The position numbers were made by a program, and so were the translations under genes. The notes beneath the pieces are model-generated. The model was given only the letters and a program-made list of their open reading frames with translations. It searched no databases and was not told the origin of the DNA. Of a stretch of DNA of 64,000 nt, positions 3,128 through 10,120 are shown piece after piece (within the stretch, counting starts at the first letter, position 1; every line of letters starts with the position of its first letter). The stretch lies in NCBI RefSeq assembly GCF_020253645.1, contig NZ_JADCBG010000028.1:25280-89279 (forward strand), written 5' to 3'. This DNA is from Phenylobacterium sp. GTDB lineage: Bacteria; Pseudomonadota; Alphaproteobacteria; Caulobacterales; Caulobacteraceae.

Positions 3128-4311
3128 GACCCTTCCCTACGCGAATGCCGGCCAGATCCGCGGGGCAATTCGTATAGAGCCTATTGCGTCGGCTCTTGGG
3201 GATAATGTCAGCGAAACTGCCAGCGGGCTCGAAGGCAAAGAAGCGAGGAATGTACGGCCAGTCGGGTGTCAGAACGTAGTGCCAGACTTTGGCCGGGTAA
3301 TCCGACACGCGATAGGTTGCGTCGGCCTGGATCCCATTCCGTTCGTCCAGGAGCGAAAATCGTGCCTTACCGGCATTGAGCTTTGCGGCAGTGAGGCCGT
3401 GGTAATCACCGCCCGAGATGAGGGTCCGCCGAATAAGGTCGCTCTTTGCCTCCGGATCAAAGGCGTAATCCTGGACGAAAAGGCCGTCGTAGAGCCCGCT
3501 TGGCGTGAAGTCCGGGTTGGTAAGGTCCAGCGCGCGCCGCTTGCCAGACCGCAGGATGTAGCCGGAGAAAAAGAAGCTCTCTATGTCACCATTTGTCTGG
3601 GTGGCCCGGTAGTCAGTGACGGGGTAACCATCGGCGGAAAAAGCCTACAAGGAGCGCCCCAGTCTTGCCATGCCTCTTGCGCAGCAGAGCCGTGAGCATT
3701 CGCGGATAACCGTGATAGTGGAACATCCCGCTCGGCTGGACGTGTCCCGCAATCGCATCCGGAACGCCGACGATCCGCGAAACGGTCGGATGCATGACCT
3801 CGTATTCCCAGCCGGAGCATTTGTTATCAAAGGCATTGTTCGGGTCGGGAACGCCGCCGTCATACCAGGGACCCGACGGATCCAGGATCACGCCGTCGAG
3901 AGCAACCCCAAAAGGGATCATATTGAGGGCCCACGGCTCGTCGTTCGGTCCGGGAACTACCTGCCCGCGCCCGCGGTCCTGCACCTCAAGCGCATAGCCT
4001 TCCTCTCCGAGGGCGAGCCGATCATTAATCCCGAACGGATCAGCGGGATTGGGAAACAAGGACCGCGGCTCGACCACACCATTATCGGAGGGATAGCGGC
4101 CTAACGGCCCGGCGCGCCCAGTGAAGCGCAACGAACCCATGGCGTTCGTCCCGGGGGAGATGTGCTCGACCATCATCATGGTATCGAGATCCGCCGACAA
4201 GGCGCGGGCGTTACTGGCCCAGAGGAGCCCGCCTGCGACACCGGCCGAGGCAACCGCGAACGACGACAACAGCAGATTACGACGACCGATCGACACGAGC
4301 TTGCTCCTCAT
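3114..4311 (-). pseudogene. YHYH-domain exported protein, interrupted by a +1 frameshift at the A5 run 3638-3642
   Basis: Frame 1 (4311-3613) has GMFHYHGYPRMLTALL..GALLVGF; removing one base continues VGFSADGYPVTDYRATQTNGDIESFFFSGYILRSGKRRALDLTNPDF...to a stop at 3114. Confidence 0.85.
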
Positions 4312-4555
4312 TGAACCGACATTCCCCAGATGAACGCTGGGTTGAGGCTAGATCTGCCGTTGTTTTGGGATTGAGGCCGCAGGCAACATCCGCTGTTGTG
4401 ATGGGCATGGTCCCATCCGAACCGGAGTTTCCGCCGGAGCCCGGGGCCGGCGCTCCCGACCCCTCGCTGGCGCAGGCGGAACAGAGGAGTGCGATCGCAA
4501 ACGCGGCAGCGCTGATCTTGCAGGCGGCGGGCCAGGTTGGCTTCATGTCAGGCAC
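4277..4555 (-). CDS. Small putative lipoprotein
   Basis: N-terminal hydrophobic segment AAAFAIALLCSACASEGSGAPAPGSGG, lipobox-like; overlaps the YHYH gene start. Confidence 0.45.
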   Translation of the reverse strand: MPDMKPTWPAACKISAAAFAIALLCSACASEGSGAPAPGSGGNSGSDGTMPITTADVACGLNPKTTADLASTQRSSGECRFNEEQARVDRSS

Positions 4556-4728
4556 TCCCTCGGGCGTCGCTGGCGCGACGGTCGGTCACATGGCCTAGCG
4601 CTGGAGTGTGGAGGGATCATGTGCGTCTTCCCGGGCAAAAGAGGCGCGATGGCCCCGAGGCGCCCCCGCAGGCGCCCGGAGATTGCCCCGGTCGCTACAG
4701 AGGTCGATGATCGTCGCCGGAGACCCGC

Positions 4729-6222
4729 ATGCAACTCACCGTCCGGCCCCTGGCCATCGACACCTTCCGCGAGAACACCGTGCTCCTGTCCCGGGACTGC
4801 CAGGCCCTGCGGCCCGAACGGCTGGCGGGGGTGCGCAAGGTCGAGGTCAGCGCCGGCGGACGCACCCTGATGGCCTCGGTGGTGATCTGCGACGATCCCG
4901 CTCTGGTCGGGCCGGACGAGGCGGGGCTGACGGAACCCGCCTTCCGGCGGCTGGGGGTCCCGGCCGGGGCCGCGGTCCGGATCACGCCGGCGCCGCCGCC
5001 GAAGGGCGCCGCCGCCCTGCGCGCCAAGATCGCCGGGGAAACCCTGACCGCCGCCCAGATCGACGACGTGGTCCATGACCTGGCCGACAACCGCTGGTCG
5101 GACATCGAGATTTCGGCCTTCCTGGTGGCCTGCGCCAGCTTCATGACGGCCGAGGAGACCCTGGCCCTGACCCGTGCCATGGCCGGCGCCGGGCGGCGGC
5201 TGACCTGGAACCGGCCCCTGGTGGCGGACAAGCACTGCATCGGCGGGGTTCCCGGCAACCGCACCTCGCTGATCGTCGCGCCGGTGGCCGCGGCGCATGG
5301 CCTGATCACTCCCAAGACCTCGTCCAGGGCCATCACCTCCCCTGCCGGGACCGCCGACACCATGGAGGTCCTGGCCCGGGTGGACCTGGACGAGGACGAG
5401 ATGCGCGCCGTGGTCGAGCGCTGTGGCGGCTGCATCGTCTGGGGGGGCCGGGTGAACCTGTCGCCCGTGGACGACGTGCTGATCTCGGTGGAGCGGCCCC
5501 TGTCCCTCGACACGCCCGAGCAGATGGTGGCCTCCATCCTCTCCAAGAAGCTGGCTGCGGGCTCAACCCCCCTGCTCCTCGACCTGCCCTCTGGCCCGGG
5601 GTCGAAGATGCGCGAGCCCGGGTCGGCCCTGCGGCTGCGAAAGCTGTTCGAATTCGTCGCCGACCGGGTAGGCCTGACGGTCGACATCGTGGAGACCGAC
5701 GGCTCGCATCCGGTGGGGCGCGGGGTCGGCCCGGCCCTTGAGGCCCGCGACGTCCTGGCCGTCCTGCGCGGCGAGGCCGGGGCGCCAGCCGACCTGAGGG
5801 AGAAGTCGATCCGCCTGGCCGGGCGGCTGATCGAGCTGGACCCCGACTGCCCGGGTGGGTCGGGGGAAGCGCGGGCCCGGGAGCTGATCGGGAGCGGCGC
5901 AGCCCTCGCCAAGCTGGAGGCCATCGCCGAGGCCCAGGGCCCGTCTCCCCTGGCCGGCGGGCTGACGCCGGGACGCCTGGTGTGCGAAATCCCCGCCGCC
6001 CGGGACGGAACGGTCACGGGCGTGGACTGCCTGAGGATCGCCCGGATCGCCCGTCTGGCCGGGGCGCCGACCGACCCCGGGGCGGGGCTTGACCTCCTGA
6101 AGCGCCGGGGCGAGACCGTGCGCCAGGGCGAGCCCCTCTACCGGCTGCACGCCGAGGACCCGTCGGACTTCGCGCTGGCCTGCGAGGCGGCGGGCGAGGA
6201 CAGCGGCTTCGCCCTCGCATGA
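4729..6222 (+). CDS. Thymidine phosphorylase family protein, long archaeal AMP phosphorylase-like form
   Basis: ~85-aa N-terminal extension, then [17 protein letters not shown]...[49 protein letters not shown]. Confidence 0.9.
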
Positions 6223-7112
6223 GCCCGGAAGTCCACGCCTTTCCCGACGAGGCGGCGCCCGCGGGGCGCTTCGCCGACGCCCTTGGCCTGCCGCTGAATC
6301 TCATCCGACCCCACGCCTTCCCGGACGGGGAGTCGAGGCCCACCGTGACGGCGACCGCGGGGTCCGCCGCCATCCTTTACCGCAGCCTCGCCCGGCCGGA
6401 CGGCCGCCTTATGCCCCTGCTTCTGGCGGCGGACGCCCTGCGGCGGGCCGGAGCGACGCAGGTCGACCTGGTCGCGCCCTACCTGCCCTACATGCGCCAG
6501 GACCGGGTCTTTACGCCGGGCGAGCCCCTCAGCCAGGCGGTGATGGGGCGGGTGCTCAGCGAGGCCTTCGACCGCATCCTGACCCTGGAGGCCCACCTGC
6601 ACCGGACGCCTGACCTGGCGGCGGTCTTTCCGGATCGACCGGCCCGGAATGTCGGCGGCGCAGGGATTCTGGCGGCGGCCCTGGCGCGCCTGACGCCCCG
6701 GGTGGACCTCGTCGCCGGCCCGGACTCCGAGAGCCTGGCCTGGGCCTCGCAGGTCGCCTCGCACATCGCCGCCGGCCTTCTCGTCGCCCGCAAGCAGCGG
6801 CGCGGAGATCGCGACGTCAGCGTTCAGTACCCGGACGATATCCGCCTGCGGGGGGCGCACGTGGCCATCGTCGACGATATCTGTTCGAGCGGCGGCACGC
6901 TGATGGCGGCCGCCCGGGCCCTGAAGGCGGCCGGGGCGTCCAGGGTGACGTCCGCCGTCGTTCACGGCCTCCATGACGCCGACGTCGTCCGCGCCCTGAA
7001 GGCGTCGGGGATAGATCGGCTCATCGCCACGGACTCCGTCGCCGGGCCGGGGCGGCGCCTGCCAGTCGCCGGCGCCCTGGCCCTCGCCTGGCGGGAGATG
7101 GACGCGGCCTAA
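6219..7112 (+). CDS. prs: Ribose-phosphate pyrophosphokinase (PRPP synthetase-like)
   Basis: [20 protein letters not shown] flexible loop, PRPP motif [17 protein letters not shown] overlap with upstream gene. Confidence 0.85.
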
Positions 7113-7118
7113 GCGGCC

Positions 7119-8123
7119 TCAGATCTCCAGGCAGATCTTCCCAAAGTGCTTCTGCGAGATCTGGTGGGCGAAGGCGGCGGCGATCCCGTCCAGGGGGAAG
7201 GTGGAGTCGATGACCGGTCGGATCGTCGAAACCTCCAGGGCCCGGATCATTTCCTCCTGCTCCTGGCGGGAGCCGACGGTGACGCCCTTCACGGCGACAT
7301 TCTTGGACATGATCACGGCCGTCGGCACCTCGCCGGCGAAACCCGCCAGCACGCCGATCAGCGAGACATGGCCGCCGATCCGGGTGGCCGTGACCGACTG
7401 GGCCAGGGTGCCCGCCCCGCCAATCTCGACCACCACGTCGACCCCCCGCCCGCCGGTCAGGGCCGCGGCGGCGGCGCCCCATTCCGGGGTCTGGCGGTAG
7501 TTGATCAGGTGGTCGGCGCCCAGGGCCCTCAGCTTCTCGAGCTTCTCGTCCGAGGAGGAGGTGGAGATGACGGTGGCGCCCGCCGCCTTGGCCAGCTGCA
7601 GGGCGAAGATGGAGACCCCGCCCGTGCCCTGGGTCAGGACCACGTCGCCGGGCTTGATCCGCGCCTCGACCATCAGGGCGCGCCAGGCGGTGAGGGCGGC
7701 GCAGGGCAGGGTGGCGGCCTCGGCGAAGGACCAGCCCGCAGGCATGTGGGTGAAGGCGCGGGCCGGCATGGCCACAAGCTCCGCCGCAAAGCCGTCGGCA
7801 TGGTCGCCGGGCACGCCGATCAGCCGCTCCAGCATCGGTCCGCCCGTCGCCCAGTTGGGGAAGAAGGTCGACAGGACCTTGTCGCCCGGGGCGTAGCCCG
7901 TCACCCCCTCGCCCACCGCGACCACCTCGCCGGCGCCGTCGGACATGGGAATCCGTCCGTCGGCGGCGGGCAGCATGCCGGCGACGACCGCGAAGTCATG
8001 GAAGTTCAGCGAGCTCGCGCGGACCCGCACCAGGAGCTCGCCGGAACCGGCGACGGGATCGGCCCGCTCTTCGATGACCAGCTTGTCCAGCCCTCCCGGG
8101 GCCTTCACGGCGGCGACTTTCAT
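7119..8123 (-). CDS. Zinc-independent MDR/quinone oxidoreductase-type alcohol dehydrogenase
   Basis: VRVRASSLNFHDFAVVAG..GDGAGEVVAVG..VLTQGTGGVSIFALQLAKAAGATVISTSSSDEKLEKLRALGADH. Confidence 0.85.
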   Translation of the reverse strand: MKVAAVKAPGGLDKLVIEERADPVAGSGELLVRVRASSLNFHDFAVVAGMLPAADGRIPMSDGAGEVVAVGEGVTGYAPGDKVLSTFFPNWATGGPMLERLIGVPGDHADGFAAELVAMPARAFTHMPAGWSFAEAATLPCAALTAWRALMVEARIKPGDVVLTQGTGGVSIFALQLAKAAGATVISTSSSDEKLEKLRALGADHLINYRQTPEWGAAAAALTGGRGVDVVVEIGGAGTLAQSVTATRIGGHVSLIGVLAGFAGEVPTAVIMSKNVAVKGVTVGSRQEQEEMIRALEVSTIRPVIDSTFPLDGIAAAFAHQISQKHFGKICLEI

Positions 8124-8249
8124 GGGCCTCTCCCTGACTGGCCCCCGCGGGGCCGATGTGTTCCGGCGCGCACAATGGACACTCCGGCGCGCATCGCAAG
8201 ATCACGCGACGTCAGCCCTTGCGCCCGGGCTTTGGCGGGCGTAACCGAA

Positions 8250-8400
8250 AGACGTCAAAGGGGAGTAGCCCTCCGCCATCCCCGGCGGGCCCCTGCGTCA
8301 ACACACTTGGCCGGCATGGCCATGGCGCAGGGAGAACGGTCCGTCCTTTCAGGGCGGGGGTTCGGGCGAGACCGATGGCGCTGCGGCCCCGTTCCGTCGG
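8250..8400 (+). promoter_or_regulatory. yybP-ykoY-like (Mn2+-sensing) riboswitch
   Basis: Conserved blocks aaaGGGGAGTAGCCC, GCGTCAACAC and GGGCGAGACC in correct order upstream of a UPF0016 gene. Confidence 0.75.
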
Positions 8401-8453: not shown

Positions 8454-9029
8454 TTGGAACCCTTCCTCACCTCCACCGCCATCGTCACCCTCGCCGAGAT
8501 CGGCGACAAGACCCAGCTGCTGGCCATCGTCCTGGCGGCCCGCTTCGTCCAGCCCTTCCCCATTGTGGGTGGAATCCTCGTGGCGACCCTGGCCAACCAC
8601 TTCCTGGCGGCCCTCATCGGCGCCCAGGCGGCGGCCTTCCTGCAGGGCGACATCTTCCGCTACATCATCGCCCTGTCCTTCATCGCCATGGCCGCCTGGA
8701 CCCTGGTCCCGGACAAGCTGGACGAGGACGAACCCCTGAAGGCGCCGGCGAGGATGGGCGCCTTCCTGACCACCACCGTGGCCTTCTTCCTCGTCGAGAT
8801 GGGCGACAAGACCCAGCTGGCCACCGTCGCCCTCGGCGCGCGGTTCGAATCCGCCCTCATCGTCACCCTGGGCACGACCCTGGGCATGATGCTGGCCAAC
8901 GTCCCGGCGGTCTTCCTCGGCCACGAGATCCTGAAACGGGTGTCCCTGACCCTGGTCCGCCGGATCGCCGCCGGCCTCTTCCTGGTCATCGGCGTCTGGA
9001 TGATCGTCCAGACGGCGGGCTGGGTCTGA
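8454..9029 (+). CDS. UPF0016/TMEM165/GDT1 family cation (Mn2+) exporter
   Basis: Two E-x-G-D-K-T motifs (AEIGDKTQL, VEMGDKTQL) in a duplicated TM domain; TTG start. Confidence 0.9.
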   Translation: MEPFLTSTAIVTLAEIGDKTQLLAIVLAARFVQPFPIVGGILVATLANHFLAALIGAQAAAFLQGDIFRYIIALSFIAMAAWTLVPDKLDEDEPLKAPARMGAFLTTTVAFFLVEMGDKTQLATVALGARFESALIVTLGTTLGMMLANVPAVFLGHEILKRVSLTLVRRIAAGLFLVIGVWMIVQTAGWV

Positions 9030-9173: not shown

Positions 9174-9220
9174 TTGCTCCCCCGAGGGGGAGCTCCCGGC
9201 GAAGCCGGGTGAGAGGGTCA
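9174..9220. repeat. Palindromic intergenic repeat, copy 2
   Basis: ttgctcccccgagggggagctcccggcgaagccgggtgagagggtca. Confidence 0.8.
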
Positions 9221-10120
9221 GCGGCGGCGGGGGATGAAGACCTCGACACCGGGGGCGACCCCGCGGGCAGCGGCGTAGTTCCCCATGTTGAGGGCGAGGC
9301 TCATTCGCCCCCGGGAGTCCGGGTAGAGCAGCACGGCGCCCTCCGGCACGTCGCTGAAGGTACGGACATAGGGCGCCGGCTCCGGCCGGCCGGCGACGGT
9401 CAGAGGCACGGTCTCGCCCAGCCGCCAGCCCAGGCCCGCGAAGGCCTCGGCGGAGAGGTCGAGGATCAGATTGCCATAGGGCCCATCCGTGCCGATCGCC
9501 CGGGCGTGGACCCCGTCCGCGCCCATCCGGGGCGGGGCGAGGTCCAGCCGGATCAGGGTCTTCGGGTCGATTTCTGGCCCGACCCCCCGCCAGTCGTCGC
9601 CGCGGGCCAGGCGCCCGACCACCGGGGCGAAAATGTCCCGCCCGTGGAAGGTGGAGGACCGGCGGGCGCCGATCATCCAGGACTCCGCCGTGATCTCGCG
9701 GGCCTGGACGATGGGATCGGTCGCGTCGAGCAGGGTGATCAGGCCGTTGTCCGGCAGAACCAGGCTCTGGCCCCGGCGGGTCCGCGCGACGATGGCGCGG
9801 CGGGTCGACCCCACCCCGGGGTCCACGACGACGAGGATCACCGCATCCGCCGCCAGCCAGGGCGCCGAGCCCGCCAGGAGGCGCGCGCCGGCCTCGACGT
9901 CATAGGGCGGGACACGGTGGGTGATGTCGAGGAGCCGGGCGTCCGGGGCGAGGGAGAGGATCACCGCCCGGCAGATGGCGACGGCGTCGTCGATCTCGTC
10001 GAAGTCCGACAGGAAACCCACCATCCGCCCCGGGGCGGCGGCGCGCACCGGGCCTGCGACGAGGGGCAGGACGAGGCCGGCGGCGAGCAGCCCACGCCGG
10101 GATGGGCGAGGGGCGCTCAT
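9218..10120 (-). CDS. S-adenosylmethionine hydroxide adenosyltransferase (DUF62) with predicted Tat signal
   Basis: MSAPRPSRRGLLAAGLVLPLVAGPVRA leader; FLSDFDEIDD, VVDPGVGSTRR, DNGLITLL, FHGRDIFAPVVGRLA, DGPYGNLILD motifs. Confidence 0.85.
   Translation of the reverse strand: MSAPRPSRRGLLAAGLVLPLVAGPVRAAAPGRMVGFLSDFDEIDDAVAICRAVILSLAPDARLLDITHRVPPYDVEAGARLLAGSAPWLAADAVILVVVDPGVGSTRRAIVARTRRGQSLVLPDNGLITLLDATDPIVQAREITAESWMIGARRSSTFHGRDIFAPVVGRLARGDDWRGVGPEIDPKTLIRLDLAPPRMGADGVHARAIGTDGPYGNLILDLSAEAFAGLGWRLGETVPLTVAGRPEPAPYVRTFSDVPEGAVLLYPDSRGRMSLALNMGNYAAARGVAPGVEVFIPRRR

Follow-up and report, generated by a model that had tools for sequence, protein, structure and literature searches.

A phosphorylase paired with a PRPP-synthetase paralogue in Phenylobacterium: a candidate nucleotide-to-PRPP shunt

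A gene pair and its surroundings

We analyzed a stretch of 64,000 nucleotides from Phenylobacterium sp. (the window), which belongs to contig C146 of a draft genome of 2.87 Mb (224 contigs, 96.2% complete). Its central features are two overlapping genes, TP2 and PRSL:

4729-6222, + strand: TP2, an archaeal-type nucleoside-5'-monophosphate (NMP) phosphorylase-like protein of 497 amino acids (profiles, PDB match, and fold match)
6219-7112, + strand: PRSL, a PRPP-synthetase paralogue of 297 amino acids with a noncanonical pyrophosphate loop, GPDxES..W (profiles, motifs, and fold)
6219-6222, + strand: ATGA, in which the stop codon of TP2 overlaps the start codon of PRSL (read directly from the sequence)
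5323-5358, + strand: TP2 residues 199-210, the family-diagnostic active-site loop; PyNP counterpart GRGLGHTGGTID (alignment)
6717-6743, + strand: PRSL residues 167-175, the altered pyrophosphate-loop region GPDSESLAW; the canonical form is SPDxGG or APDxGA (alignment)
45-153, + strand: a truncated second copy of the start of TP2, 109 nt, 91% identical to 4728-4836 (the first 32 residues are 97% identical)

A preliminary description of this DNA had placed an open reading frame of about 498 amino acids at 4729; the frame is there, but it encodes 497. The 297-amino-acid frame and the ATGA overlap were as described. The overlap suggests that TP2 and PRSL are translationally coupled, and ATGA or GTGA is found at the TP2 stop codon in 40 of 74 homologous TP2-PRSL pairs. 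PRSL is followed by a gene on the opposite strand (7119-8123), which encodes a zinc-type alcohol dehydrogenase/quinone reductase, so the operon in the window consists of TP2 and PRSL alone. Each protein is a full-length member of a large family, and the AlphaFold models have a mean pLDDT of 91.6 for TP2 and 90.9 for PRSL (the latter was built without one plasmid-record sequence). The closest named relatives of TP2 are from assemblies of Caulobacteraceae, Hyphomonadaceae, and Hyphomicrobiales (62-67% identity).

The remnant of TP2 at 45-153 sits 4.7 kb upstream of the intact gene. A divergent YHYH-domain gene is intact beside the remnant and is split into two frames beside the intact TP2 (window 3613-4555; L131:7171-8190). 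Therefore, this segment was probably duplicated and then partly decayed. Next to a beta-CASP gene at L132 (G229:C142), a stretch that matches part of TP2 contains an in-frame TGA and is probably a decaying copy as well. We also considered a mobile or viral origin for TP2, which we rejected: there was one partial match to TP2 among 2.9 million viral contigs, and the listed plasmid copies are on large replicons.

Elsewhere in the window, a yybP-ykoY manganese riboswitch (8248-8395, 71.9 bits) lies upstream of a GDT1-family cation antiporter (8454-9029), which is an ordinary arrangement for manganese export. The gene at 9218-10120 (- strand) encodes an S-adenosylmethionine hydrolase family protein (SAM_HAT) that scores below the curated equivalog cutoffs.

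Family, fold, and active-site motifs of the two proteins

TP2 scores well above the cutoffs of NF003338 (649.8 bits versus 434) and TIGR02645 (591.9 versus 434.6), and its relatives are annotated as "thymidine phosphorylase family." It falls below the cutoffs of the equivalogs for DeoA and pyrimidine-nucleoside phosphorylase (PyNP): TIGR02643 (137.4 versus 570.7), TIGR02644 (179.4 versus 409), NF004490 (190.4 versus 269), and NF004747 (123.3 versus 559). The closest solved structures are from Thermococcus kodakarensis (4ga4, 4ga5, and 4ga6), with E = 4.7e-98 for 4ga5 versus 2e-37 for PyNP. TP2 and the T. kodakarensis enzyme are about 40% identical, and the TP2 model aligns to 4ga5 over its full length (TM scores of 0.93/0.93 over 501 columns). 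The alignment includes the long N-terminal domain that the preliminary description had noticed; the core motif it had noticed is also present, as two family motifs at residues 168-178 and 195-215. Its assignment of TP2 to the archaeal AMP phosphorylases agrees with the fold, the active-site loop, and the N-terminal domain, but not with the archaeal AMP phosphorylase equivalog, TIGR03327 (458.6 bits versus a cutoff of 535). By that cutoff TP2 lies outside the archaeal group, yet it probably works like a member.

In the active-site loop, S199, R200, I202, T203, and S204 are invariant in 115 bacterial TP2 proteins and also occur in the T. kodakarensis enzyme and in all eight fusions of TP2 to the ribose-1,5-bisphosphokinase PhnN (see below). 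Across all of these, SRAITS (S199-S204) is identical except for one residue in one sequence; two PyNPs have GRGLGH or GRGLAH at this position. In a phylogenetic tree, the PhnN-TP2 fusions form a clade (support of 1.0) that is sister (0.91) to the clade of the window gene, with the T. kodakarensis enzyme outside. The T. kodakarensis enzyme phosphorolyses AMP, CMP, and UMP to ribose-1,5-bisphosphate (R15P) (PMC9700705; PMC8376864). Because this enzyme and the PhnN-TP2 fusions bracket TP2, TP2 likely catalyzes the same reaction (NMP + Pi -> base + R15P). A search of the literature found no biochemical study of PRSL or of a TP2 from any bacterium.

PRSL exceeds the cutoff of the PRPP synthetase family TIGR01251 (167.8 bits versus 113) and has the fold of PRPP synthetase (TM of about 0.9). 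It narrowly misses the cutoff of NF005537/PRK07199 (296.8 bits versus 322); PRSL orthologues that occupy this gene position mostly score 300-426 bits. PRSL and canonical Prs are cleanly separated: apart from one short fragment, PRSL proteins score at least 262 bits against NF005537, and no canonical Prs scores above 165.

Across 76 PRSL homologues, the motifs for binding ATP and ribose phosphate are retained, as are most of the catalytic ones (FPDGE, RQD, KxR, and DDxxSSG-T). The canonical pyrophosphate-binding loop, (S/A)PDxG(G/A), is replaced by GPDxES..W at 167-175 (GPDSES in the window protein), with the G, P, D, and E171 found in 76 of 76 homologues and W175 in 74 of 76. Other constant departures are HLHR at 126-129 and KxRxGD at 192-197. 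The preliminary description had left room for PRSL being the only prs of its genome, but this is excluded: a second, canonical prs (L001, contig C206) encodes SPDVGG at the pyrophosphate loop. The PRPP-synthetase reaction places pyrophosphate on the C1 hydroxyl of ribose 5-phosphate (R5P), and we know of no precedent in this fold for phosphorylation of the C1 phosphate of R15P. If PRSL uses R15P, which is plausible but unproven, it carries out a reaction that is new for the PRPP-synthetase fold.

Distribution of TP2 with PRSL, PhnN, and other genes

The preliminary description had called for a survey of the gene pair. Of 84 ordinary TP2 loci, 75 contain PRSL, and in 74 it directly follows TP2 in the same orientation, so the pairing is not due to chance. 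TP2 scored above the cutoff in 37 of the 299 Pseudomonadota genomes that we surveyed. PRSL was found in 35 of these 37, as compared to none of 37 TP2-free genomes that we hand-picked from that survey, using related families when we could (P = 8.5e-19, Fisher test, not corrected for relatedness). The two exceptions (G273 and G225) both encode TP2 fused behind PhnN, which produces PRPP from R15P (PMC11452294).

We then considered a further 8 genomes, which are those in the named set whose TP2 locus has no adjacent PRSL. In three of them, PRSL lies elsewhere in the genome and PhnN is absent. The remaining five lack PRSL, and each has PhnN above the cutoff. As background, PhnN is found in 7 of the 35 genomes with both TP2 and PRSL and in 8 of the 37 TP2-free genomes. 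Combining the TP2 genomes, PhnN is present in 7 of 7 that lack PRSL versus 7 of 38 that have it (P = 7.6e-5), or in 5 of 5 if the two fusion genomes are left out (P = 8e-4); these P values are too optimistic because the genomes are not phylogenetically independent. Every TP2 genome that we examined carries PRSL or PhnN, which is most simply explained if PRSL does PhnN's job. Canonical Prs is also present in the sampled relatives.

The fusions of PhnN to TP2 are found at eight loci (L124:7425-10080, L123:5659-8681, L135, L136, L137, L142, L143, and L144), and the named ones are in Alpha- and Betaproteobacteria. Both of the two fusion proteins that we tested exceed the cutoffs of TIGR02322 and NF003338. 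nadC is directly upstream in 8 of 8 fusion loci, and neither PRSL nor the beta-CASP RNase (described below) is found in any of the eight; conversely, none of the 84 ordinary loci contains PhnN or nadC. Two annotated plasmids have nadC-"phnN" with transporter genes, and the L123 locus also contains genes for a Mo-hydroxylase and a FAD-monooxygenase. In the fusions, a common set of residues in the putative base pocket, which we assigned by homology, is replaced: N239, H244, N252, R264, and E255. A previous study found nadC and phnN next to bug27, which encodes a quinolinate-binding protein, and it nowhere uses the word "phosphorylase" (PMC11452294). These loci probably encode a cycle from quinolinate to nicotinate that recycles PRPP: quinolinate and PRPP would form NaMN, phosphorolysis of NaMN would release nicotinate and R15P, and R15P and ATP would regenerate PRPP.

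A beta-CASP metallo-hydrolase with an RNA-specificity domain, whose best match in the PDB is the RNase TTHA0252, is encoded in 41 of the 84 ordinary loci (within 4 kb of TP2 in 40). The order in many Alphaproteobacteria is TP2-PRSL-beta-CASP RNase. In subfamily B of TP2, the beta-CASP gene is upstream instead, so the link survives rearrangement. A homologue was found in 24 of 37 TP2 genomes versus 10 of 37 TP2-free genomes. The window genome encodes its homologue, which is 63% identical to the operonic form, on a separate contig, C42. There (L129, 4570-10023), the beta-CASP gene is divergent from genes for a Crp-type regulator, a universal stress protein, a PAS histidine kinase, and a LuxR-type response regulator; this is possibly a low-oxygen cluster apart from TP2-PRSL.

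In Bradyrhizobium diazoefficiens, low oxygen raises the expression of this operon. Under microoxia, the log2 change in protein was 2.1 for bll3117 (TP2), 4.4 for bll3116 (PRSL), and 2.9 for bll3115 (MBL), and the corresponding fold changes in transcript were 5.1, 7.7, and 15.4 (PMC6515984). There is no FNR/FixK box near TP2 in the window, which has one match elsewhere versus 1.2 expected by chance. We also considered the lxa low-oxygen locus of Burkholderia cenocepacia, but we dropped it, as the paper we searched does not mention the TP2 or PRSL genes.

Neighbors in other TP2 loci include universal stress proteins, Crp/Fnr-type regulators, PhaC, and enzymes similar to ADP-forming acetyl-CoA ligase or PEP synthase. 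On a plasmid of Sulfitobacter dubius (L118:11989-16895), TP2-PRSL is followed by a protein of 826 amino acids that is weakly similar to phosphoketolase and is annotated as xylulose 5-phosphate 3-epimerase. We did not retain this as main evidence: it is a single plasmid example, with profile scores far under the cutoff. The beta-CASP RNase, the low-oxygen expression, and the nadC-PhnN-TP2 loci all lie beyond what can be seen from a single window.

A proposed route from nucleotides to PRPP

R15P has long been regarded as a side product, and its known sinks are PhnN, which converts it to PRPP, and the archaeal route via an isomerase and RuBisCO. In the window, the preliminary description had seen no R15P isomerase or RuBisCO, and this extends to the entire draft genome: searches found neither (the genome is about 96% complete), and we therefore rejected a RuBisCO-linked route. 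Nor does the genome's own PhnN account for the second step, as no protein exceeds the cutoff of TIGR02322 (the best match, on contig C86, scores 42.7 bits).

We propose that TP2 and PRSL form a shunt from nucleotides to PRPP in which PRSL takes PhnN's role. As an explanation of the whole, this is the best that we have, with a probability of roughly 0.6. It builds on the gene pair, the folds, the family memberships, the co-occurrence, and the complementarity with PhnN, as observed here, and on the induction in published data. NMPs would come from the decay of RNA or from idle nucleotides. The beta-CASP RNase, which belongs to the same operon in many relatives, somewhat favors RNA as the source. 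TP2 would convert the NMP and phosphate to the free base and R15P; most simply, PRSL would then convert R15P and ATP to PRPP and ADP; and phosphoribosyltransferases would reuse the PRPP. Nucleotidases, R5P, and RuBisCO would all be bypassed. The step from R15P to PRPP by PRSL is, on its own, about an even bet. The shunt suggested in the preliminary description is partly supported: it withstood the comparisons that could have contradicted it, and it gains from the co-occurrence, from the complementarity with PhnN, and from the PhnN-TP2 fusions that lack PRSL. Its weaker points are the TIGR03327 score of TP2 and the unproven action of PRSL on R15P. No adenine phosphoribosyltransferase was found above the cutoff in the window genome, or in the control genome, Caulobacter vibrioides. 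Therefore, adenine released from AMP may not be recovered by that route, and other bases, or the loss of the base, may be what counts in this organism. Further points against the proposal are that the beta-CASP homologue of the window genome is on another contig, that TP2 has no FNR/FixK-like box nearby, and that PRSL retains most of the canonical catalytic motifs.

In another explanation, TP2 does make R15P, but PRSL works as a conventional R5P pyrophosphokinase, an isoform for stress under different control, and supplies PRPP for salvage of the bases, with R15P passing to an unseen enzyme or being dephosphorylated. PRSL has the fold and most of the catalytic motifs expected of an R5P enzyme, it passes TIGR01251, and paralogues in operons can serve the control of expression. 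However, a canonical prs is already encoded in this genome and in the sampled relatives, so another ordinary R5P enzyme would be superfluous. Also, a plain R5P enzyme would not explain why PRSL is absent only where PhnN is present, and the pyrophosphate loop is invariantly GPDxES. We consider this explanation unlikely, and two others much more so. If TP2 were a thymidine or pyrimidine-nucleoside phosphorylase, as annotated, then ribose 1-phosphate would reach PRSL as R5P via phosphopentomutase. The fold is indeed common to DeoA and PyNP, and databases call the family thymidine phosphorylase, but the curated equivalog scores are far under the cutoffs (137 versus 570, 123 versus 559, and 190 versus 269 bits), the active-site loop matches NMP phosphorylase, and it is hard to see why an enzyme that produces ribose 1-phosphate would be fused to an R15P kinase; this explanation is highly improbable. 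Scarcely more credible is that the pathway conserves energy: nucleotides would be phosphorolysed, PRSL would return phosphate(s) from C1 of R15P or PRPP to AMP or ADP, which would save ATP at low oxygen, and the pentose phosphate would be fermented. The PRPP-synthetase reaction is reversible, the operon of B. diazoefficiens is induced by microoxia, and some neighbors are related to energy or stress (including the one phosphoketolase-like gene after PRSL, a weak profile match). Yet PhnN is known to run towards PRPP, and the energy-related neighbors are inconstant, with none at the window locus.

A fuller version of the shunt proposal has three parts: PRSL is an R15P-using analogue of PhnN, of independent origin and with the PRPP-synthetase fold; TP2-PRSL(-beta-CASP RNase) is a widespread, low-oxygen-induced route from RNA or nucleotides to PRPP; and NadC with PhnN-TP2 is a sister module, the PRPP-recycling cycle from quinolinate to nicotinate. 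We hold this combination tentatively, at a little short of even odds. Our literature search, for which most subscription papers were out of reach, found no publication on a relation or coupling between TP2, PRSL, and PhnN. If the proposal is true, then Pseudomonadota have a new branch of nucleotide salvage, in which a phosphorylase (found in 37 of 299 sampled genomes) has its own PRPP-forming partner; the annotations of the TP2 and PRSL families would be corrected, with a function given to a Prs paralogue that is common in these bacteria; and RNA turnover would be tied to survival at low oxygen. The complementarity with PhnN makes the shunt directly testable in B. diazoefficiens.

Among known systems, TP2 most resembles the archaeal NMP (AMP) phosphorylase TK0352 of T. 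kodakarensis, with which it shares the order of domains, including the N-terminal domain, the fold, and SRAITS. TP2 differs in that it is under the cutoff of TIGR03327, its partner is a Prs-like protein, and the window genome lacks R15P isomerase and RuBisCO. Compared to the putative bacterial "thymidine phosphorylase" of NF003338/TIGR02645, TP2 is a full member with no difference; the family's name is based on annotation. PRSL is like the PRPP synthetases (Prs, NF005537/PRK07199) in its fold, its ATP and ribose-phosphate loops, and its match to TIGR01251, but it narrowly misses the NF005537 cutoff, its pyrophosphate loop is changed, and it is found only alongside TP2 in the sampled genomes. 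PhnN (TIGR02322) has the same proposed role as PRSL, substitutes for it across genomes, and is fused to TP2 at eight loci; however, PhnN is a P-loop kinase, and PRSL is not homologous to it and has an unrelated fold. Finally, the archaeal NMP shunt, or pentose bisphosphate pathway, has the same first step, NMP + Pi -> base + R15P; the archaeal pathway continues from R15P to RuBP and RuBisCO, whereas we propose that the bacterial TP2-PRSL route ends in PRPP (PMC9700705 for the archaeal pathway).
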